From assembly GCA_903952145.1 (NCBI GenBank), contig CAJBES010000205.1, forward strand, positions 1 to 33,158: 33,158 bases of DNA. Direction: 5' to 3'. The notes beneath the pieces are model-generated. The model searched no databases. It saw only the letters and a program-made list of their open reading frames with translations, and was not told the DNA's origin. The stretch comes from an uncultured Opitutaceae bacterium (GTDB lineage Bacteria > Verrucomicrobiota > Verrucomicrobiia > Opitutales > Opitutaceae). The translations under genes and the position numbers were made by a program. Shown one piece after another: positions 22,849-32,810 of the stretch. Every line of letters begins with the position of its first letter. Position 1 is the first letter of the stretch.

Positions 22849-24786
22849 TCACCCGCCAAGGAACTGGCGCAGCATCTCCGGTCCGTTTTCCCAAAAGACC
22901 AGCAACACGCCCATCAGCGAGCCGCCGGCGATGACGCCGGAGGCCACCGGCCAGGTGTAGGCTTCGGACAGCGCGGGATTCTTCTTTTCCAACACGCGGC
23001 CGATGACGGCGCCGAGGCAGAAGAGCAGGCCGTAGTACCAGTGGAAGGTCCAGGACAGGCCGAGGGCCGCAGCCGAAGGCATCCAAGCCTGTTGCCGCGG
23101 ACACCATTTGGCCAGCAGTGTCAGGATGATGCCCACGGCGCCGCCAATCCCAATCGACCAGACCTTGACGGGTTGCAATGCCTCCAGACCCTGACTGAGC
23201 GCCATGGCCACGGCGCGCCACGATTGGGCGGCGGGGGCCGGAAACTGGTCCGAGCCGAGCACCTCGGCGTTCGGCACAAGGACGCGGAAGGCCAGCACGG
23301 TCGCGATCGTGCCCATGAAAATGCCGGCGAACTGCGCGAGGAACTGCTTGCGCGGGTTGGCCCCGAGCAGGTAGCCGCTCTTCAGGTCAGTGAGCAGGTC
23401 GGCCGAGGAGCTGGCCGCGCTGGCCGTGATGTTGGCGCTCATCAGGTTGATATTCAGGTTGCCTGGGCTGATGGCGCCGAAGAGCAGTTGCGTGACCTTG
23501 CCCATGGCCCCGACCGGGGTCGTGTCGGTCTCGCCGGTCACCCGGCAGGCGACAAGGGCGAGCAGAAAGGTGATGGCCACCGCCAGAGCGCTTTGCCACA
23601 CCGGCATGCCGAAACTGACCTTGCCCAGCCAGCAGACGGCGATGAGCGCCAAGCCCTGGCCGACGAAAAACCAGGACATGGGCGTCTCGATCGCGTCCAG
23701 GGGATTTGTGGCTGCGGCGGGCTGGCGGCCGAACATTTTCCGCATCGAACCCAACGCGGCGACGATGGTGCGCCACTGCATGAAGAAAGCCAGCAGGCTG
23801 GAGCTGACCATGCAGCTCACGCCGCCCCAAAGCGTCCACTGCACGACTTCGCGGAAGCCGGTGCCGGTGATGGTGCCGTTGGCCTGCATGAGCGGCACAA
23901 ACACGCCCCAGCAGAGCGTCCCGCCGAGCAGCATGCTGGCGCCCGCCCGCAGGCCCATCAGGGCGCCGCCGGCGATGAAGATCGGATCCCATTGGAAAAA
24001 TACGGTGCGACCCATCCAGGTCGGCCCGAAGGTGGCGGCGTTGAATTTGGCGAAGAATACACTGAGGCTGTAAGGGGCGAGTTTCGCGCTGACAAGGTGG
24101 AGGCCGTCCATCCAGAACTGGCTGGCGGCGGCGGCAATGCCACCGAGGGTCAGGGCGCGGGCCGACCGGGCGGCCTTGGCGCCTTCGGAGTAGAGGGTGC
24201 GCAGCGTCACGGCGGCCGCGATGCCGGTGGGGAAGCGCAGTTGCTCGGTGTTGATCATCTGGCGCTTCATCGGGATGGCCATCGTTACGCCCAGCACCGC
24301 GAGGATGAAGACCCACGCCAGCATCTGCCCGAGCGGCAGCTGCTGGTGGTTGATCATGACATAGGCGGCGAAGGCCGACACCAGGGTCGAGCCGGTGGAG
24401 TAACCGGCGGCGCTGGCGGTGGACTGCATGCAATTATTTTCCAAAATCGACATCGGCGTGCGGGCGAGGCCGATTTTGCGGAAGATATTCCACGAGGTGT
24501 AGGAGACGATGCAGGCGGTGATGGCGACGCCGAAGCCCCAGCCGGCCTTGAGCCCGATGTAGAGATTGGTCAGTGAGAGAATGCCGCCGAGCACGGTGCC
24601 CATGAGCACCGCGCGGAGCGTGAGCTGCGGCATGCGGTCGCCGCGACCGAGGTAGACCTTTTCATACCATTGCCGCTCGATCTCGGCGGGCGTGCCTTGA
24701 AAGCCGTCCACAAAGATGGGATGGTCGGCGGCGTTGTCGTGGCCCGGGGCGGAAGCACCGGGGGTGGGCGGCTGGGGTTGGGCCAT
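22849..24786 (-). CDS. OPT-family oligopeptide/metal-chelate transporter (copy 2)
   Basis: The protein has 645 residues from MAQPQPPTPGAS at 24786. A proline-rich cytoplasmic head (residues 1-60) is followed by about 14-16 membrane helices. Family marks include LTLRAVLMGTVLGGILSLTN and the YIGLKAGWGFGVAITACI pair at the N-terminus, LRFPTGIAAAVTLRTLY, and LLTDLKSGYLLGANPRKQFL with the conserved DLKxGYLLGAxPR loop. It is not a recent duplicate of the copy at 15200-16996, since the sequences differ throughout. It lies 95 bases downstream of the sigma-factor partner gene on the same strand and 262 bases before nfnA. The substrate is unknown. Confidence 0.9.
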   Translation of the reverse strand: MAQPQPPTPGASAPGHDNAADHPIFVDGFQGTPAEIERQWYEKVYLGRGDRMPQLTLRAVLMGTVLGGILSLTNLYIGLKAGWGFGVAITACIVSYTSWNIFRKIGLARTPMSILENNCMQSTASAAGYSTGSTLVSAFAAYVMINHQQLPLGQMLAWVFILAVLGVTMAIPMKRQMINTEQLRFPTGIAAAVTLRTLYSEGAKAARSARALTLGGIAAAASQFWMDGLHLVSAKLAPYSLSVFFAKFNAATFGPTWMGRTVFFQWDPIFIAGGALMGLRAGASMLLGGTLCWGVFVPLMQANGTITGTGFREVVQWTLWGGVSCMVSSSLLAFFMQWRTIVAALGSMRKMFGRQPAAATNPLDAIETPMSWFFVGQGLALIAVCWLGKVSFGMPVWQSALAVAITFLLALVACRVTGETDTTPVGAMGKVTQLLFGAISPGNLNINLMSANITASAASSSADLLTDLKSGYLLGANPRKQFLAQFAGIFMGTIATVLAFRVLVPNAEVLGSDQFPAPAAQSWRAVAMALSQGLEALQPVKVWSIGIGGAVGIILTLLAKWCPRQQAWMPSAAALGLSWTFHWYYGLLFCLGAVIGRVLEKKNPALSEAYTWPVASGVIAGGSLMGVLLVFWENGPEMLRQFLGG

Positions 24787-24881
24787 GGGGTAAGCAGGAG
24801 GTAGGGCGCCGAGAGTGCGTCCGGGTGGTCCCGTGGCAAGCGGCAAGCCCGGGTGGCCCCGGCGGGGAGGGGTGGCGGCAA

Positions 24882-25529
24882 TCAGCCGCCTGCAAGCAGC
24901 TCGCGGCGGAGTTTCTCGAGTTCCTCCAGCCGGGGATCGATGCGCAGGCGAATCGCTTTTTGGACATCCACCCACCACCACACCGTAGCGCCAATGGGAA
25001 CGACCAGAAGAATCGCGATCCAAGCGGCGGTGCTGGGGGTGGTCAGCAGCGTGACCAGATATTCTGGCGGCGCCCCGTGACGAACCTTTTGCCAGCAGCC
25101 ATAACCAAGGAGAAGAAGGGCCGTGCCATAAGCGGTGAGATACCACTTGGCATAGTGACTGATGAAACCCCGCTGGTGTCGCAGTTCGGTGATGTTGGCC
25201 TCCAGTTTAACCAGCATCGATGCTTCCGGCCCAACCCGCCTTTGCCGGAAGCGCCACAGATCATACAGAAATACGCAGGAGACGCCGGCAATTACCGTCA
25301 GGCCCAGCAAGATCGGCCAGCCGAAGAGGCCCATGCTCCACGTCAACCAGCCAAACCCGATGGAGGCGATGATGCCGCCCACGCCTTCGATATAGTTACG
25401 CAGCAGTATGGTGCCCTCCATTTTCCGGCGCTTGGCTTCAAAGGTGGCACGGAGTTCACCCGGATCTGTGGCGGTCCCGACGGGTAGGGACTGCCGCTTC
25501 CAGATCGCTTCGTAGTCACTCAAGTTCAT
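24882..25529 (-). CDS. Membrane protein, candidate anti-sigma or sigma-associated partner
   Basis: This 215-residue protein starts MNLSDYEAIWKRQ and has a charged helical N-domain (to about residue 45). Four membrane segments follow: VGGIIASIGFGWLTWSMGLF, WPILLGLTVIAGVSCVFLY, WYLTAYGTALLLLGYG and WIAILLVVPIGATVWWWVDV. It ends in a charged coiled tail (RIDPRLEELEKLRRELL). Its start codon lies inside the ECF sigma gene, overlapping by 14 bases, with AAGGAG six bases ahead of the ATG. Overlap with a sigma gene is the usual place for an anti-sigma factor. The zinc-binding HxxxCxxC of classical ECF anti-sigmas is absent, so the role is inferred from position only. Confidence 0.75.
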   Translation of the reverse strand: MNLSDYEAIWKRQSLPVGTATDPGELRATFEAKRRKMEGTILLRNYIEGVGGIIASIGFGWLTWSMGLFGWPILLGLTVIAGVSCVFLYDLWRFRQRRVGPEASMLVKLEANITELRHQRGFISHYAKWYLTAYGTALLLLGYGCWQKVRHGAPPEYLVTLLTTPSTAAWIAILLVVPIGATVWWWVDVQKAIRLRIDPRLEELEKLRRELLAGG

Positions 25530-26049
25530 TGGTTACTCCTTTCATGAGTTCGGCGAGGCGTTGACGTGCCCGCGTCAAGGCGACTCCGACATGGTTTTCG
25601 GTCAGGCCGGTGATTTCAGCGATCTCGCGGTAGGCCAGGCCGTCGAGCGAAAACAACATCAGGGCCCGGTCGAACATCGGCAGGGCGTGGATGGAGGCAT
25701 ACAGTTTGTCGAGAATCTCGCGATCGCCGGCATGCTCGGCTGGCGAGGCGGCAGGTGTGGCCATGACACCGAAGTCTGCTCCAGGCTCGATGCGCTTCTC
25801 CCGCCGGTCGATGCCGCGACGCCAGGTCAGCGCGGTGTTGAGACAGACGCGGTAAATCCACGTCGAGGGTTTGGCCTGCCCGGCATAGGCCGGCAGTGAG
25901 CGCCAGAGTTGCAACAGCAACTCCTGCTGCAGGTCGGCCGTATCGGCCGGGGTGGCGGCGAACGAACGGGCGACTTTGACGATGATGCCCCGATGCGCCT
26001 CCAGCCAGCGCTGGAAAAGGGATTCGGATTCGGCAGGTGAGCTCATCAT
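25516..26049 (-). CDS. ECF-type RNA polymerase sigma factor
   Basis: The 177-residue protein starts at MMSSPAESESLFQRWLEAHR (26049; the next codon is also ATG). Region 2 is seen as DLQQELLLQLWRSLPAYAGQ and the PSTWIYRVCLNTALTWRR helix (-10 recognition). Region 4 is DRALMLFSLDGLAYREIAEI and TGLTENHVGVALTRARQRLA (-35 recognition helix-turn-helix). The two are joined by a short linker. This is the group-IV (ECF) layout lacking regions 1 and 3. Its stop overlaps the start of the downstream membrane-protein gene, suggesting coupled expression. It diverges from the amrB-amrA gene across a 239-base region. The regulon is unknown. Confidence 0.9.
   Translation of the reverse strand: MMSSPAESESLFQRWLEAHRGIIVKVARSFAATPADTADLQQELLLQLWRSLPAYAGQAKPSTWIYRVCLNTALTWRRGIDRREKRIEPGADFGVMATPAASPAEHAGDREILDKLYASIHALPMFDRALMLFSLDGLAYREIAEITGLTENHVGVALTRARQRLAELMKGVTNELE
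25536..25541 (-). promoter_or_regulatory. Shine-Dalgarno of sigma-partner membrane gene
   Basis: On the minus strand AAGGAG sits 6 bases before the ATG at 25529, within the end of the sigma coding region. It fixes this start. Confidence 0.7.
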
Positions 26050-26274
26050 AGGATTAGTCGCCGCAGCGAACCAATCCTTACAAACATTCGAGGGAAAGCC
26101 AGCCGTCGGCGGCGGGATGAGGACGGGCGGAACGTCATACGCCGCGATCCCACGGCGCGTCCTTGATACCTGCGCAGCGGCGCGAACGGATGCCCGCACC
26201 CTCGCACAAATCAAGGTTGTCCGCCCCGCCGCGTCCCGATACGTTCCGCGCAAACTCGCGAGTCATTCAATTCG

Positions 26275-26288: not shown

Positions 26289-27809
26289 ATGAAACGTTGG
26301 TCAATTCCCCGCGGTGCGATGCGGCAACTGCTGGCCGCCGCCCTTGCCGTTGCGCCCGTCACGCTCACCGCGGCGGCGCCCAAAGTCCGCGAGCCGGCGG
26401 TTGCCGGTCTGTTTTATCCGGCCGATCCCGCGGCGCTGGCCCGGATGATCGACGGTTACCTTGCCGCGGCCAAGACGGAATCGCCCGGCGAACTCAAGGC
26501 GCTCATCTGCCCGCACGCGGGCTACGTTTACTCGGGACCGGTGGCCGCGTCCGGATTTCGGCTGCTGCAAGGGGCCGACTTTGCCACGGTCATCCTGCTC
26601 GCCCCCAGCCACTATGCCGCCCTTGACGGCGCCGCGGTGTCCGATGCCGACGTGTTTCGTACGCCGCTGGGCGACGTGCCGATCTCGCCCAAGGCGCGCC
26701 AACTCGCGCAACTCCGTCCCTTTGCGCTTGCACCGCGTTGCCTGGTGCAGCGTCCCGGCTGGGCCGCCCAGTCGTCGCGCCAGCCACCCGCGGACGGCTG
26801 TGCTACCGCCGACACGTGGGAGCATGCCGACGAGGTCGAGGTGCCGTTTCTCCAACGCACGCTTAAAGATTTCCAGCTGCTGCCCGTCGTCTGCGGCGAA
26901 GTCAATCCGGCGCAAGCCGCGCGCGCGCTCACGCAGGTGCTCGACGATCGCACGCTGATTGTCGTCAGCTCCGACCTCAGCCACTACCAGCCTGATGCCG
27001 AGGCACGCACCCTCGACCGGCGCTGCACCGATGCAATCTGCGCACTCGACGTCGATAAAATGTCCGCGCAGGAAGCCTGCGGGCGCACGCCGATCCTCAC
27101 GCTGCTGCACATCGCGAAGCAGCAGGGCTGGCAGGCGCGGTTGCTCGACTACCGCAACAGCGGCGACACCGCGGGCGACAAGGCGCGCGTCGTCGGCTAT
27201 GCGGCGATCGCGTTTTACGCGCCGGCAGCGGCCACAGAAACCTTCACCAATGAGGAGCGGCGTTTCCTCCTTGATGTCGCTCGCCAGTCCGTCCGCGAAG
27301 CCGCCGGCACCGGCCGGCAGCGGCCCGTGTCCGCCGACGGACTCGCCGCCAAACTCACCGCCACGCGCGGTTGCTTCGTCACGCTGACGCAGGGCGGCCG
27401 GTTGCGCGGCTGCATCGGCCACATCCAACCCATGATGCCGCTCTACCAGGCGATCATTGACAACGCCCGCAACGCCGCCATCCGCGATCCGCGTTTCCTG
27501 CCGGTCTCCGCGCGGGAGGTCGCCGAACTCGAAATCGAAATCAGCGTGCTCACGGTGCCGCAGCCACTCGCGTTTACCTCGCCCGAAGACCTGCTGCGCC
27601 TGCTGCGTCCGCAGAAAGACGGGGTGGTGCTCAACATTCGGGGCCGGGTCGCGACCTATCTGCCGCAGGTGTGGGAGCAGTTGCCCGACAAGGTCGATTT
27701 TCTCGACAGCCTCGCCGAGAAAGCCGGCTGCGCGTCCGGCGACTGGCGCAAGCCCGGCGTCACGGTCTCGATCTACCAGGTTGAGTCGTTCAAGGAATCG
27801 GACCGCTGA
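26289..27809 (+). CDS. amrB: AmmeMemoRadiSam B-A fusion: Memo domain plus AMMECR1 domain, exported
   Basis: The protein has 506 residues. Residues 1-30 look like a signal peptide (MKRWSIPRGAMRQ, then LLAAALAVAPVTLTAAA). Residues 31-312 are a Memo-like domain that keeps all five metal-site positions of human MEMO1: PHAGY (His 76), APSHY (His 108), SSDLSHY (Asp 229, His 232) and ACGRTPI (Cys 264). A roughly 25-residue insert sits near 148-178. Residues 315-500 are the AMMECR1 domain with RLRGCIGHI (371-379) and NIRGRVATYLPQVW. In most genomes these are separate genes called AmmeMemoRadiSam proteins B and A. Here they are fused, and the start with AAGGAGG is solid. It is the first gene of a four-gene cassette; the next ATG is 3 bases after its stop. 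Its biochemical activity is not established. Confidence 0.93.
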   Translation: MKRWSIPRGAMRQLLAAALAVAPVTLTAAAPKVREPAVAGLFYPADPAALARMIDGYLAAAKTESPGELKALICPHAGYVYSGPVAASGFRLLQGADFATVILLAPSHYAALDGAAVSDADVFRTPLGDVPISPKARQLAQLRPFALAPRCLVQRPGWAAQSSRQPPADGCATADTWEHADEVEVPFLQRTLKDFQLLPVVCGEVNPAQAARALTQVLDDRTLIVVSSDLSHYQPDAEARTLDRRCTDAICALDVDKMSAQEACGRTPILTLLHIAKQQGWQARLLDYRNSGDTAGDKARVVGYAAIAFYAPAAATETFTNEERRFLLDVARQSVREAAGTGRQRPVSADGLAAKLTATRGCFVTLTQGGRLRGCIGHIQPMMPLYQAIIDNARNAAIRDPRFLPVSAREVAELEIEISVLTVPQPLAFTSPEDLLRLLRPQKDGVVLNIRGRVATYLPQVWEQLPDKVDFLDSLAEKAGCASGDWRKPGVTVSIYQVESFKESDR

Positions 27810-27812
27810 GCG

Positions 27813-29966
27813 ATGAATGCCGCGACGACCGCGCCGGGCTCCGCACACCGGCTGTTTCTGGCGGCGGTTGGCGGCATCGGCGCGGCGGCCGTGATGACGC
27901 AGCTCGTGCTGATGCGCGAGTTGCTCGGCGCTTTTTCGGGCAATGAACTCATCTTCGGTCTCAGTCTCGGCAGCTGGCTGTTGCTCACCGGCGCGGGCGC
28001 GTGGCTGGCCCGCGGCGCCCAGCGGCTCGATTCGCCGGAGCACGTTTTCGGCTGGGGGCAGATTGGCATCGCGTTGCTGCCGCTGGCGGAGGTCGTGGCC
28101 GTGCGCGTGCTGCGCGATGTCGTGTTTGCGCGCGGCGCGGCGGTGGGTGTGATCGAAACCGTCTTGGGCTGCCTTGCCCTGCTCGCGCCGTATTGCCTGC
28201 TGTCGGGCGCGATGCTGACGCTGGCGTGCGCGTGGCTGGCGCAGCGCGGCGACCGGGCAGGTGCCGGCCGCGTCTACGTCGCCGACACGCTCGGCAGCAT
28301 CGCTGGCGGCGCGCTGTTCTGTTTCGCGCTCGTGCCGTGGTTTGACCATTTCGCGCTGCTGGCATTTCCTGCCCTGCTGAATCTCACGCTCGCCGGCCTG
28401 CTCGCGTGGCGCGCTCGCCGGCGGGTGCTGCTGGGCACGGCCGCCCTTGCCGCCGTCGCGCTTGGCACCGTGGCGCTCACGGCCAACGTCGACGAACTGA
28501 CGACGCACTGGCAGCACGCCGGCGAGGTCGTCTTCCGCGCGAACTCGCCCTACGGTCGGCTGGTTGTCACGCGCGCCGCCGGCCAGCTCACGTTTTTTGA
28601 AAACGGCGTCCCGGTGGTCTTTTCCGACAACTCCGCCCACATCGAGGAGACCGTTCACTACGCCATGAGTCAGCGGCCCGGTGCGCAGCGCGTCCTGCTG
28701 CTCTCCGGTGGCGTGGCCGGCGCGGCGCGCGAGGTCCTGCGCTACGGCGTGCGCGAGGTCACGGTCGTGGAACTCGACCCGCGCATGATCGAGGCCGGCC
28801 ACCGGCTGCTCCCCGGCCATCTCGATGATCCGCGCCTCCGCCTTGTCGCCACCGACGGCCGGCGCTTCGTGCAACGCACCGCCGCGCGCTTCGACGTGGT
28901 GCTGCTCGATCTGCCCGATCCATCGACGTTTCTATTCAACCGCTTCTACACTGCGGAATTTTTCGCCAGCGTGAAGCGCATCCTCACCCCCGGCGGCGTG
29001 CTCGGCTTCGGTCTCGGCCGTTATGAAAATTACGTCAGCCCCGAACTCGCCCGGCTGCTCGCGTCCGCGCAGCGCACCGCGCGCTCGGTGTTCGCACAGG
29101 TGCGGATGATTCCGGGTGGCCGCGTTTATTTCCTTGCGGCCGACGGGCCGCTCGACCTCGACATCGCGGCCCGGCTCGAACAGCGCGGCCTCGCGACGCA
29201 GTTCGTCAACCGCCACTACCTTGCCGCCGCCCTGACGGGCGACCGTCTGGCCGATCTCGATCGAGCCGTCGCCCAGCCGGCCGAACTCAACACCGACTTC
29301 AACCCGGTGCTGTATTACTACAGCCTGCGCCACTGGCTGAGCCAGTTCGCGCTGCCCTCAGGCCTGTTGGGTGCGGCGCTCGTTGTGGCGCTGGCCGTTT
29401 ACCTCGTCCGGCTGCCGGCGGTGCCGCGCGTGCTTTTCGCGTCTGGCTTCGCCGCGTCGGCGCTCGAGGTCGTGCTGTTGCTCGGGTTTCAGATGTTCTA
29501 CGGCTCGCTCTACCAACAGGTCGGGCTCGTCGTGACCGTTTTCATGGCCGGCCTCGCAATTGGCGCGTGGCGGGCGGCGGGGCGCCCGGTGGTCGTTTCT
29601 GCTGGGCGTGGTCTCGCATGGCTGGCGTTGGCGGTGGCCGCGTTCGCGGCGCTGCTGCCATTGGTGCTGCCCCGGCTCTCGGGCCTGGGCGACATCGCCG
29701 GCCAGGGCGCCATGCTGCTCATCACGTTCCTGCTCGCCGCAGTCGTCGGGGCCCAGTTCCCACTCGCCGCCGCCGCGTCGCCCGGCGAGGCCACGCGGGT
29801 GGCCGCGCGGCTTTTTTCCGCCGACCTCACCGGCGCGGCGCTCGGCGCACTGCTGGTGAGCGCGTGGCTCATCCCGGTCGCAGGCATCACCATGGTCTGC
29901 CTGCTCACGGCGGGGTTGAATCTCGCCGCCGCCGGGCTAGCCTGGCGTCAAACTCCGAGCGCATGA
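27813..29966 (+). CDS. Membrane-embedded spermidine-synthase-like protein
   Basis: The 717-residue protein has three parts. Residues about 14-222 form about six hydrophobic segments. Residues about 235-490 form a SpeE-like Rossmann methyltransferase/aminopropyltransferase domain with LLLSGGVAGAAREVL (about 295-309, AdoMet-type glycine motif), VTVVELDPRMIEA (317-327), DGRRF (348-352) and LLDLPDP (364-370, catalytic Asp region). Residues about 510-710 carry further membrane helices. Spermidine synthases use decarboxylated AdoMet and a polyamine acceptor. The usual DExxYHE acceptor motif reads SDNSAHIEETVHY here, so the acceptor may differ. The start is 3 bases after the upstream stop; the stop overlaps the next gene as ATGA. 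This tight packing implies co-expression with the amr genes. Confidence 0.88.
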   Translation: MNAATTAPGSAHRLFLAAVGGIGAAAVMTQLVLMRELLGAFSGNELIFGLSLGSWLLLTGAGAWLARGAQRLDSPEHVFGWGQIGIALLPLAEVVAVRVLRDVVFARGAAVGVIETVLGCLALLAPYCLLSGAMLTLACAWLAQRGDRAGAGRVYVADTLGSIAGGALFCFALVPWFDHFALLAFPALLNLTLAGLLAWRARRRVLLGTAALAAVALGTVALTANVDELTTHWQHAGEVVFRANSPYGRLVVTRAAGQLTFFENGVPVVFSDNSAHIEETVHYAMSQRPGAQRVLLLSGGVAGAAREVLRYGVREVTVVELDPRMIEAGHRLLPGHLDDPRLRLVATDGRRFVQRTAARFDVVLLDLPDPSTFLFNRFYTAEFFASVKRILTPGGVLGFGLGRYENYVSPELARLLASAQRTARSVFAQVRMIPGGRVYFLAADGPLDLDIAARLEQRGLATQFVNRHYLAAALTGDRLADLDRAVAQPAELNTDFNPVLYYYSLRHWLSQFALPSGLLGAALVVALAVYLVRLPAVPRVLFASGFAASALEVVLLLGFQMFYGSLYQQVGLVVTVFMAGLAIGAWRAAGRPVVVSAGRGLAWLALAVAAFAALLPLVLPRLSGLGDIAGQGAMLLITFLLAAVVGAQFPLAAAASPGEATRVAARLFSADLTGAALGALLVSAWLIPVAGITMVCLLTAGLNLAAAGLAWRQTPSA

Positions 29967-30232
29967 ACACGGGCCCCTTCAGTTTCATCTGCCTCAAGAT
30001 CGTCCGCTGGACCGGCTGGCTGCTGCTGCCGATGGTCACCGCGTTTTTCGCGACCGGTTACGCGATCAGCGGCCGCTATGGCTTCGGCGCCTTCACCGAC
30101 GAGCAGACCGCCCTCGAGTTGCACAAGCTCATGCACCTGCCGCTCGTGATCCTTGTGGTCGCGCACGTCGTGCCGTCAACCTACCTCGCCTTCATCCGAT
30201 GGGGCTGGATCAAACCACACCCGAAAGCCTGA
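29963..30232 (+). CDS. Small two-helix membrane protein, cytochrome-b-like
   Basis: This 89-residue product starts at the ATGA overlap with the preceding gene. It has two membrane helices (about residues 11-34 WTGWLLLPMVTAFFATGYA and 57-80 HLPLVILVVAHVVPSTYLAF) joined by a polar loop. Histidines at 54, 58 and 68 cluster at the second helix; His54 and His68 are 14 residues apart, like paired haem ligands in b-type cytochrome helices. This resembles one half of a DUF4405/cytochrome-b561-type four-helix bundle, so the protein may dimerise and bind haem. That is inference from sequence shape only. The next gene overlaps its end by 34 bases. Confidence 0.65.
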   Translation: MNTGPFSFICLKIVRWTGWLLLPMVTAFFATGYAISGRYGFGAFTDEQTALELHKLMHLPLVILVVAHVVPSTYLAFIRWGWIKPHPKA

Positions 30233-31533
30233 GCCCGCGCGGTCCGGGCGCCGGCGGCACCCCGCGGTTCCTCACACGGCGGCAGGCGCTCGCATGCGGC
30301 GCCGTGGGGCTCGCGAATATAGCCATGGGGACCGAAGCAAACTCCTGGCTGCGCGATCTCCTCGGCCTCGGCAGCTCCGCCGCGGCGCCGGCCGAAATCT
30401 TCAAGGGTGACGCGCCCAGCGACGAGGTTTTCGCCCTCTGGCAGCGGCGCGGTTGGGTGCACGAGGGATCGCACTACCTCAAGCTCGACCGCAACGTCCA
30501 GTGCAAGGTCTGCCCCAACAACTGCATTCTCGCGCCCGGTGACCGCAGCCACTGCCGCAACAAAATCAACCGCGACGGCACGCTCTACACCCTCGCCTAC
30601 GCGAACCCGTGCACGTTCCACGTCGATCCGGTCGAGAAGAAACCGCTGTTTCATTTCCTGCCCGGCAGCCTCACGTTCTCGCTCGCGACGTCGGGCTGTG
30701 TGTTCCGCTGCCTCAACTGCCAGAACTGGGAAATCTCCCAGAAGAAACCCGAGGAAACCAAGGACCCGCACGGATCCGCGCTGTGCTTCCGTCCGCCGCT
30801 GCCCGCCGCGCTCACCGCGACCGACCTGCGCCGGCTCAGTCTATTCCCCGACGACATCGCGGCCGTCGCCACCGCGCTGCGCTGCCCTTCCGTCGCCTAC
30901 ACCTACTCCGAACCCACCGCCTACTACGAATACACCTTCGACTCCTGCCGCGCCGCCCGGACCCGCGGCGTGCGCAACATCATCGTCACCTGCGGCTCCA
31001 TCGAAGAACGCCCGCTCCGTGAGCTCGCGCCCTTCGTCGATGCCGCACACGTCGATCTCAAGGGCTTCAGTGAAGATACCTACAGGCAGCTGAACTCCGG
31101 CAAACTTGAGCCCATCCTCCGCACGCTGAAAATCTATCACGAGCTCGGCGTCTGGTTCGAGGTGATCAACCTCATCGTGCCCACCTACACCGACGACCTC
31201 GACGGCATCCGGCGCATGTGCGGCTGGCTCGTGGACAATCTCGGCCCCGACCGGCCGCTGCATTTCTCGCGTTTTCATCCGCAGCACAAGCTCGATCACC
31301 TTCCGCCCACGCCCGTCGAGACGCTGCTCAAGGCGCGCGACCTCGCGCGCGCCGCCGGCTTGCGCTACGTTTACATCGGTAACGTTCCCGGCCTCGCCGG
31401 CGCCGGGAACACGTCGTGCCCGACCTGCCACCGCACGGTCATCGAACGCGATATCTTCTCCGTGACGCGTCTCGACCTCAACGCCGGTAAGTGCCGGCAC
31501 TGCCACACCGCCATCGCCGGGGTGTGGTCGTAG
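30199..31533 (+). CDS. amrS: AmmeMemoRadiSam system radical SAM enzyme, with twin-arginine-type leader
   Basis: The 444-residue protein carries the radical SAM signature CVFRCLNC (Cys 167, 171, 174) that binds the AdoMet-reducing [4Fe-4S] cluster. N-terminal cysteines QCKVCPNNC (102, 105, 109) plus Cys 119, and C-terminal CPTC (407, 410) and CRHC (432, 435) pairs, are the extra metal-type motifs of the AmrS family. KRDG/TLYTLAYANP and SVAYTYSEPTAYYEYT regions also match. An unusual N-terminus (residues about 22-45) reads PRFLTRRQALACGAVGLANI, a twin-arginine plus hydrophobic core that looks like a Tat signal. A later ATG (codon 43, 30325) would remove it. It is the last gene of the cassette, overlapping the upstream gene by 34 bases. 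The substrate is unknown. Confidence 0.92.
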   Translation: MGLDQTTPESLSPRGPGAGGTPRFLTRRQALACGAVGLANIAMGTEANSWLRDLLGLGSSAAAPAEIFKGDAPSDEVFALWQRRGWVHEGSHYLKLDRNVQCKVCPNNCILAPGDRSHCRNKINRDGTLYTLAYANPCTFHVDPVEKKPLFHFLPGSLTFSLATSGCVFRCLNCQNWEISQKKPEETKDPHGSALCFRPPLPAALTATDLRRLSLFPDDIAAVATALRCPSVAYTYSEPTAYYEYTFDSCRAARTRGVRNIIVTCGSIEERPLRELAPFVDAAHVDLKGFSEDTYRQLNSGKLEPILRTLKIYHELGVWFEVINLIVPTYTDDLDGIRRMCGWLVDNLGPDRPLHFSRFHPQHKLDHLPPTPVETLLKARDLARAAGLRYVYIGNVPGLAGAGNTSCPTCHRTVIERDIFSVTRLDLNAGKCRHCHTAIAGVWS

Positions 31534-31817: not shown

Positions 31818-32573
31818 TTACCGTGACCGGTGCTCCTGCCATTGGGCTGCCCGGGTGAGCGAGGCCAGGGCGGTGGACGAGAAGGAAAGGAAACGCACCT
31901 GCTCCAGCGTGTAGCGGGAGCGTCGGGCATGCGCGATCAGATCCGGATCCAGCGCGGTGCCGGTCTGCAGGAGCTGCACAGGGAAAGGCTCGTCCGGGCG
32001 TGTCGGGTCCAGCGCCATCCAGTGCGTGCCGCGGCGGTAGACCAGCACACTGTGCCCGATGCCCGCCAGCAGCACCGATGCGTTCGGCCCCCCTTGGGGC
32101 TCGCGGGAGGAGAACAGAACCACCCCCGCGGCAGTGATTTGCTCCTCGGTGGTCAGCAGACGGGCGAGATGAAACAGACAGGCGACGAAGCAGCCGTTAA
32201 ACAGAGTGTCGCCGGTCTGTTCCGGTGGCGGCAGGAGGGCTTGGGGATAAGCACGCAAGTTACCGACCGCCGGGGCACGGCGGTGCAACTGGGCGACGAT
32301 GGTATCGGCCAGGGCGGAGGTATCTGCCGCGATGGGTTCGAGCAGGCAGGTTCCGAGGCCCGGGGTGTAAAGCCAGAGCAAATCGTCGAAAGCCAGAGCA
32401 ATGGCATAGATGCGCTTGGGCGGCGCTGAAGCCTGGGGCAGGTCCATGCCCACGATGCAGGTGTCCACGAGGCCGTTGACCAGCTGGGCGGTGTTCATGG
32501 CGTCGCGCATCGCCGCCCCAGCCGGAACGGCCAGGGCAACGAGCATCAGGCTGAAACGCGGGAGACAGGCCAT
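31818..32573 (-). CDS. Putative exported Cys-His-Asp protein of unknown function
   Basis: With the ATG at 32573 the protein has 251 residues and an N-terminal MACLPRFSLMLVALAVPAGA that looks like a signal peptide. No family is certain. It contains, in order, a cysteine in an alpha-helical context (LFNGCFVACLFHLARLL, Cys about 128), a histidine at a strand start (GIGHSVLVYRR, His about 174) and an aspartate after an aromatic strand (THWMALDPT, Asp about 189). This C-H-D order and the HxVxVY...W.xxDP pattern resemble transglutaminase-like and papain-fold cysteine proteins. The assignment is inference; the catalytic roles are unproven. An upstream in-frame start at 32708 is possible but its translation is low-complexity. 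Confidence 0.65.
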   Translation of the reverse strand: MACLPRFSLMLVALAVPAGAAMRDAMNTAQLVNGLVDTCIVGMDLPQASAPPKRIYAIALAFDDLLWLYTPGLGTCLLEPIAADTSALADTIVAQLHRRAPAVGNLRAYPQALLPPPEQTGDTLFNGCFVACLFHLARLLTTEEQITAAGVVLFSSREPQGGPNASVLLAGIGHSVLVYRRGTHWMALDPTRPDEPFPVQLLQTGTALDPDLIAHARRSRYTLEQVRFLSFSSTALASLTRAAQWQEHRSR

Positions 32574-32810
32574 TGGATGATGGCAGTATACGCTTGGATG
32601 CGCGGCTCGCAAGCGACTAGAGGCCGGCGGCGGCAACCATGACGAGGAACGGGTCGCGCAACCGGAACCGGGAGCGGCGGCGGCGCGGTAAGGGCTTGGG
32701 TTCGGCAAAGGGCCGGAACCCGACGCGGCGCAGGTGGATCGGAGGATGGTTATCTCAATTGTTCTTCGCTGCCGGGATTGAAAACAAGGGCGAGAACGAT
32801 CCGGGTGTTT

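Follow-up and report, generated by a model that had tools for sequence, protein, structure and literature searches.

The window analyzed here is a stretch of 33,158 nucleotides from an uncultured Opitutaceae bacterium (assembly GCA_903952145.1, contig CAJBES010000205.1), and it carries a cassette of four genes related to the AmmeMemoRadiSam system. AmmeMemoRadiSam is a widespread radical-SAM enzyme system without an explained function, and both MEMO and AMMECR1 are linked to human disease. The cassette codes for a Memo-AMMECR1 fusion, a protein with 14 transmembrane (TM) helices and an inserted domain similar to the spermidine synthase SpeE, a small protein with two TM helices, and the radical SAM enzyme AmrS (Table 1). 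This four-gene arrangement had been described in an initial annotation of the DNA, and both its coordinates and its junctions proved exact. The sequence AAGGAGG precedes the ATG of the Memo-AMMECR1 gene, three bases separate this gene from the SpeE-like gene, the latter meets the small-protein gene in an ATGA overlap, and the small-protein gene and amrS overlap by 34 bases. The 34-base overlap (30199-30232) is preserved across phyla, with RWGWIK in one frame and MGMDQ in the other. Genes for Memo, AMMECR1 and AmrS all lie on one strand in one run, as expected of an AmmeMemoRadiSam member, and their products score above the cut-offs of the curated models TIGR04336 (237 bits, cut-off 26), TIGR04335 (188.6 bits, cut-off 99), and TIGR04337 (330 bits, cut-off 220). 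The SpeE-like protein scores 81.2 bits with PF01564 (cut-off 22.9). The Memo-AMMECR1 gene of the cassette is the sole AMMECR1 gene in the window genome. The metal-site residues His49, His81, Asp189, His192, and Cys244 of human MEMO1 correspond by motif to H76, H108, D229, H232, and C264, and are retained in 37 to 39 of 39 Memo sequences.

Table 1. Coordinates of the cassette genes and their predicted features in the window.
Feature	Position	Strand	Evidence
Memo-AMMECR1 fusion, predicted exported, 506 aa	26289..27809	+	PF01875 and PF01871; TIGR04336 and TIGR04335 above cut-offs
Predicted N-terminal signal peptide of Memo-AMMECR1, about residues 1-31	26289..26381	+	hydrophobic segment ahead of the Memo domain
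14-TM MFS-like membrane protein with inserted SpeE-like domain, 717 aa	27813..29966	+	PF01564
SpeE-like domain, residues 224-517, predicted outside the membrane	28482..29363	+	charge counts, Foldseek
SGGVAG in place of GGGDG of SpeE, residues 298-303	28704..28721	+	alignment of 64 homologs
Two-TM cytochrome-b-like protein, 89 aa	29963..30232	+	37 homologs adjoining AmrS; weak PF01292 match
His54 and His68 of the small protein, spacing H-x13-H	30122..30166	+	homolog alignment
AmrS radical SAM enzyme, putative exported form, 444 aa	30199..31533	+	TIGR04337, 330 bits; PF04055
Tat-like signal of AmrS, TRRQALACGAVGLANIAMG, RR at 30277-30282	30271..30333	+	conserved in relatives
CX3CX2C [4Fe-4S] motif of AmrS	30697..30720	+	C167, C171, and C174 invariant in the AmrS alignment

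When 84,980 species genomes were scanned, 80 related loci came to light, spread over Verrucomicrobiota, Planctomycetota, Acidobacteriota, Sumerlaeota, Desulfobacterota, Bacteroidota, and several groups of archaea. Mangrovibacterium marinum DSM 28823 (L084) and Gaoshiqia sediminis A06 (L101) are cultured bacteria that carry the locus. Two relatives from the same family (G020 and G010) have the identical four-gene order, the same junction style and both export signals, and gene order and junction style recur in dozens of loci from further lineages; the arrangement is therefore conserved far above chance. Four other members of the family (G007, G013, G033, and G014) carry a canonical AmrS, in most cases with a Memo-AMMECR1 neighbor, at loci that have no export signals and neither membrane gene. 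The initial annotation had named related amr loci lacking both membrane genes as evidence that would speak against its proposal; such loci formally exist in the same family, but only for the other, canonical cytosolic clade. In a quick tree, all SpeE-linked AmrS fall into one larger clade (99% SH-aLRT) separate from canonical cytosolic AmrS, and a subgroup of AmrS without a signal is placed within it beside the Tat clade. From this placement, the SpeE-like protein and an exported Memo appear to be shared traits and the Tat-type AmrS a trait of the larger branch. Judged from its sequence, the cassette is a distinct clade with predicted exported components; the earlier view of a standard AmmeMemoRadiSam set to which two genes were added needs correction. 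It resembles AmmeMemoRadiSam (TIGR04335, TIGR04336, and TIGR04337) in bringing together Memo, AMMECR1, and a radical SAM enzyme similar to the activase of pyruvate formate-lyase, but differs by its predicted exported components, the 14-TM SpeE-like protein, an electron-transfer module, and the separate AmrS clade. A full-text search of the literature found no exported AmrS and no AmrS-linked SpeE; an earlier mention may exist in Burroughs et al., 2019, which treats the genome contexts of Memo.

The main point that the initial annotation overlooked is predicted export, in the form of a Tat-like signal on the N-terminus of AmrS (TRRQALACGAVGLANIAMG) and a signal peptide at the start of Memo-AMMECR1 (MKRWSIPRGAMRQLLAAALAVAPVTLTAAAP). 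An RR, RK, or KR pair followed by a hydrophobic stretch is present at the N-terminus of 86 of the 92 AmrS of the clade, from bacteria as well as archaea (RR in 59); among short and canonical AmrS used as controls the motif matched 2/29, neither of them resembling a Tat signal. Curated Tat-signal models are insensitive on short N-termini; they recognized 8 (TIGR01409) and 3 (PF10518) of 80 AmrS N-termini against none of 18 controls, and were almost the only recurrent matches in that scan. A hydrophobic signal segment occurs in 37 of 41 Memo N-termini, 12 of which have a lipobox, and canonical Memo proteins have neither. TatC is encoded in the window genome (E = 1.9e-52) and in 43 of the 45 genomes with the locus (one genome counted under two handles). 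Tat genes have also been found next to amrS in archaea. At four archaeal loci the distance from amrS to tatC ranges from 3 bp to 2.6 kb, and Pfam confirms TatC in three of them. One archaeal class has TatC above the cut-off in only 3 of 234 genomes; 68 genomes of the class have some form of AmrS, the Tat form occurs in three among those examined, and two of these three carry TatC within the cluster (Fisher p = 3e-4), accompanied in one of the two by TatA and a Fer4_5 gene. As Tat is otherwise almost absent from this class, the Tat system at such DPANN-type loci may be kept mainly for AmrS. The amr clusters of the DPANN-type loci L188 (6691-10949), L067, L076, L064, and L085 include tatC, once as tatA plus tatC.

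The AlphaFold2 model of the SpeE-like protein (pLDDT 90.7) consists of seven helices, a domain, and seven more helices, the second count taking the last long helix as two. Counts of lysine and arginine over 64 homologs alternate as expected for a cytoplasmic N-terminus, seven TM helices, a SpeE domain outside, seven TM helices, and a cytoplasmic C-terminus. Seven fusions of SpeE with FMN_bind carry the motif for covalent flavin mononucleotide (FMN), and because an even number of TM helices (eight) lies between this motif and the SpeE domain, the two should face the same side of the membrane. Flavinylated domains are extracytosolic (PMC8238504), so the outside position of the SpeE domain gains independent support; the envelope location proposed in the initial annotation is supported. 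The two 6-TM halves of the protein are homologous (hhalign probability 97-98, E 1e-11), and a Foldseek search with the 7-TM first half gave mostly transporters of the major facilitator superfamily (MFS) as top matches, at E-values of 0.09 or worse. With the SpeE-like domain, Foldseek found the aminopropyltransferases 1uir and 3o4f (TMt 0.71-0.74). A survey of 388 genomes of the phylum detected SpeE-like matches in 74, of which 69 also have AmrS. Every form that extends beyond the N-terminal half comes from a genome with AmrS (69/69, p = 5e-29). The five matches in genomes without AmrS cover the first half only (about 510-550 aa, PRK03612 type); they were set apart after the result had been seen, and with them included p = 1e-22. 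This co-occurrence agrees with the earlier proposal that both additional membrane genes are part of the pathway.

The aspartate that binds decarboxylated S-adenosylmethionine (dcAdoMet) in spermidine synthases is replaced in the SpeE-like protein by Val301, and by V, L, I, M, or F in nearly all 64 homologs, the rest being gapped at this position. The catalytic aspartates of the DxxD motif drift as well, D366 and D369 each being found in 36/64 homologs. The N-terminal histidine methyltransferase NHMT (AN4663) of filamentous fungi has seven TM helices and a SpeE-like domain, acts on secreted lytic polysaccharide monooxygenases (LPMOs) in the endoplasmic reticulum, and carries a hydrophobic residue where spermidine synthases have the dcAdoMet-binding aspartate; its 7-TM sequence has been reported to be unique to fungi (PMC10349129). 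The cassette protein likewise combines seven TM helices, a SpeE-like domain, and an aliphatic residue for this aspartate. It differs from NHMT by seven further TM helices and the tie to AmrS. A membrane SpeE-like architecture is also shared with PRK03612 and with the fused MFS-spermidine synthase family NF037959 (62.2 bits, cut-off 40), but the window protein stays below the PRK03612 cut-off (180.6 vs. 472) and differs from that type in having 14 rather than about seven TM helices, the link to AmrS, and the lost aspartate.

Two histidines 14 residues apart on one TM helix are the haem-ligand spacing of b cytochromes. Both histidines of the small protein are present in 37/37 homologs and the 14-residue spacing in 36/37, from bacteria and archaea, and the cytochrome-like character suggested in the initial annotation is supported by this b-type histidine pattern. 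The C-terminal two helices of the protein match weakly the prokaryotic cytochrome b561 family (PF01292), which includes membrane subunits of formate dehydrogenase and hydrogenase; it shares with this family the two histidines 14 residues apart in one helix, but its score of 13.6 bits is below the Pfam gathering score of 30.1. As it has only two helices, it would have to act as a dimer. Its homologs give weak matches to cytochrome b561, Sdh_cyt, or DUF4405 models, and 13 of 36 match PF01292 at E ≤ 0.01. No relative with a solved structure was found in the PDB. A search for hidden H-x13-H proteins among the small membrane open reading frames (ORFs) of 48 loci gave one chance match only. Other electron-transfer modules appear in relatives. 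In Bacteroidota, SpeE itself carries the H-x13-H pattern, on a fused N-terminal extension. Loci without the small gene may have a Fer4_5 (NapH-like) gene beside amrS (L047, L076, L085, and L188) or fused to SpeE (L138). A sister subgroup (L144, L148, L159, L160, L161, L165, and L168) has the 14-TM SpeE fused to a covalent-FMN domain and a NapH-like iron-sulfur module, together with a lipoprotein Memo-AMMECR1 and an AmrS without an export signal. These FMN_bind and Fer4_5 modules, with the covalent-FMN motif present, are of the NosR/RnfG-NapH type (PMC8238504) and are absent from the window itself; the flavinylation survey that describes the type mentions neither spermidine synthase nor radical SAM nor AMMECR1 (PMC8238504).

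The reading that we favor, with a probability of roughly 0.6, is that the cassette encodes an extracytoplasmic AmmeMemoRadiSam pathway with a trans-membrane electron supply. AmrS would be exported by Tat in a folded state with its iron-sulfur cluster in place, and Memo-AMMECR1 would leave the cytoplasm through a Sec or lipoprotein signal. The 14-helix MFS-like scaffold would hold the SpeE-like domain at the outer membrane face, where its ligand would be S-adenosylmethionine (AdoMet) or another adenosyl compound rather than dcAdoMet, and where it would most likely perform an AdoMet-dependent group transfer of the methyltransferase type, as in fungal NHMT. The small protein, probably as a dimer, would bind two b haems via H-x13-H and carry electrons across the membrane, so that radical chemistry could start in the exported AmrS. 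Jointly, the proteins would modify an envelope substrate. The sequences support the signals, the topology, the lost motif, the linkage of the genes, and the exchange of modules; what we infer is that the proteins are actually exported, that haem is bound, that AmrS receives the electrons, and that AdoMet is used outside, along with the nature of the product. In a stricter version, every step of the radical-SAM pathway, reductive AdoMet cleavage included, would take place outside the membrane; electrons would cross through a conduit dedicated to the pathway, and the membrane-borne 14-TM protein would deliver AdoMet. This version is tentative and somewhat less probable than an even chance. Should the favored reading hold, AdoMet chemistry would extend to the envelope in many bacteria and archaea, and there would be a direct handle on the long-standing question of MEMO/AMMECR1 function: the reading points to an envelope molecule as the substrate and names the partners for electrons and AdoMet. 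The initial annotation is partly supported, in pathway membership, the envelope location, and the cytochrome-like histidine pattern.

Several observations weigh against an extracytoplasmic pathway. We know of no radical SAM enzyme that works outside the cytoplasm; neither AdoMet nor low-potential electrons would be expected there, and the presence of AdoMet is an unproven premise. The potentials of b haems usually lie too high for a radical SAM cluster. No window protein reaches any curated cytochrome or Tat cut-off, and the full-length window AmrS gave no match to the curated Tat-signal models. The signals of 27/86 AmrS are RK or KR, which are weaker Tat motifs, and the two locus genomes that lack TatC carry an AmrS with this type of signal. 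In the sister subgroup (L144, L148, L165, L168, and others), Memo has an export signal and SpeE is fused, and AmrS is short and has no signal. A local electron module is lacking at the loci of Desulfobacterota and at part of those of Bacteroidota, and a sign test with independent contrasts for the Tat form and SpeE on the tree found too few independent gains.

The same sister subgroup, with its signal-less AmrS beside exported Memo and SpeE, speaks for regarding the cassette as an ordinary AmmeMemoRadiSam set in which the AmrS N-terminus merely tethers a cytosolic enzyme and the membrane partners move a product outward, a role that the similarity of the SpeE scaffold to MFS transporters would suit. 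We consider this unlikely, since the AmrS motif is Tat-like, with an N-in/C-out orientation expected, and in archaea otherwise without Tat it goes together with tatC or tatAC. The MFS likeness bears also on the proposal that the 14-TM protein serves chiefly to transport or exchange AdoMet or the product, its SpeE domain being used for binding or gating and not as an enzyme. Two homologous 6-TM halves, the MFS transporters among the structural matches, and the drifting catalytic aspartates are consistent with it, and it would solve the problem of AdoMet supply. The Foldseek E-values are not significant, however, and NHMT, a 7-TM SpeE-like protein with the same loss of aspartate, is needed and sufficient for AdoMet-type methylation of secreted proteins (PMC10349129); the transporter function is rather doubtful.

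For the small protein, a structural or assembly role beside SpeE and AmrS instead of a cytochrome function would accord with the lack of any curated family above cut-off and of a PDB relative. The invariance of the histidine pair and its spacing in bacteria and archaea, the single chance occurrence of the pattern in other small membrane ORFs, and the iron-sulfur and flavin modules that take its place in relatives make such a role quite improbable. Synthesis or modification of polyamines for the pathway, which the gene name of the SpeE-like protein suggests, agrees with the clear spermidine synthase fold. SpeD (PF02675) was not found in the window genome (93% complete) and is present in only 12/45 other genomes with the locus. 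Because SpeD is absent and the dcAdoMet-binding aspartate is lost, the protein is, on its sequence, not a spermidine synthase; polyamine synthesis was rejected, and any polyamine role is given hardly any weight beside the favored extracytoplasmic reading.

Clustering of 823 neighboring ORFs revealed no further conserved partner or substrate gene. The clusters consisted of promiscuous ABC ATPases, response regulators, and oxidoreductases, locally conserved neighbors of close relatives, and the archaeal TatC. A Desulfobacterota-like genome (L083, 5351-9821) has genes similar to a CbiMQO-type metal importer after its amr cluster. In the window, an ECF sigma factor gene and an overlapping gene for a 215-aa membrane protein that matches no known family (24882-26253, minus strand) are divergent from the cassette. 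The sigma factor was considered as a member of the system and left out, as it is absent beside the cassette in two relatives of the same family. Further upstream, a large membrane protein is encoded on the minus strand (22849-25146) that by eye resembles OPT oligopeptide transporters. Downstream, the minus strand codes for a 296-aa protein with an apparent signal peptide (31818-32708).

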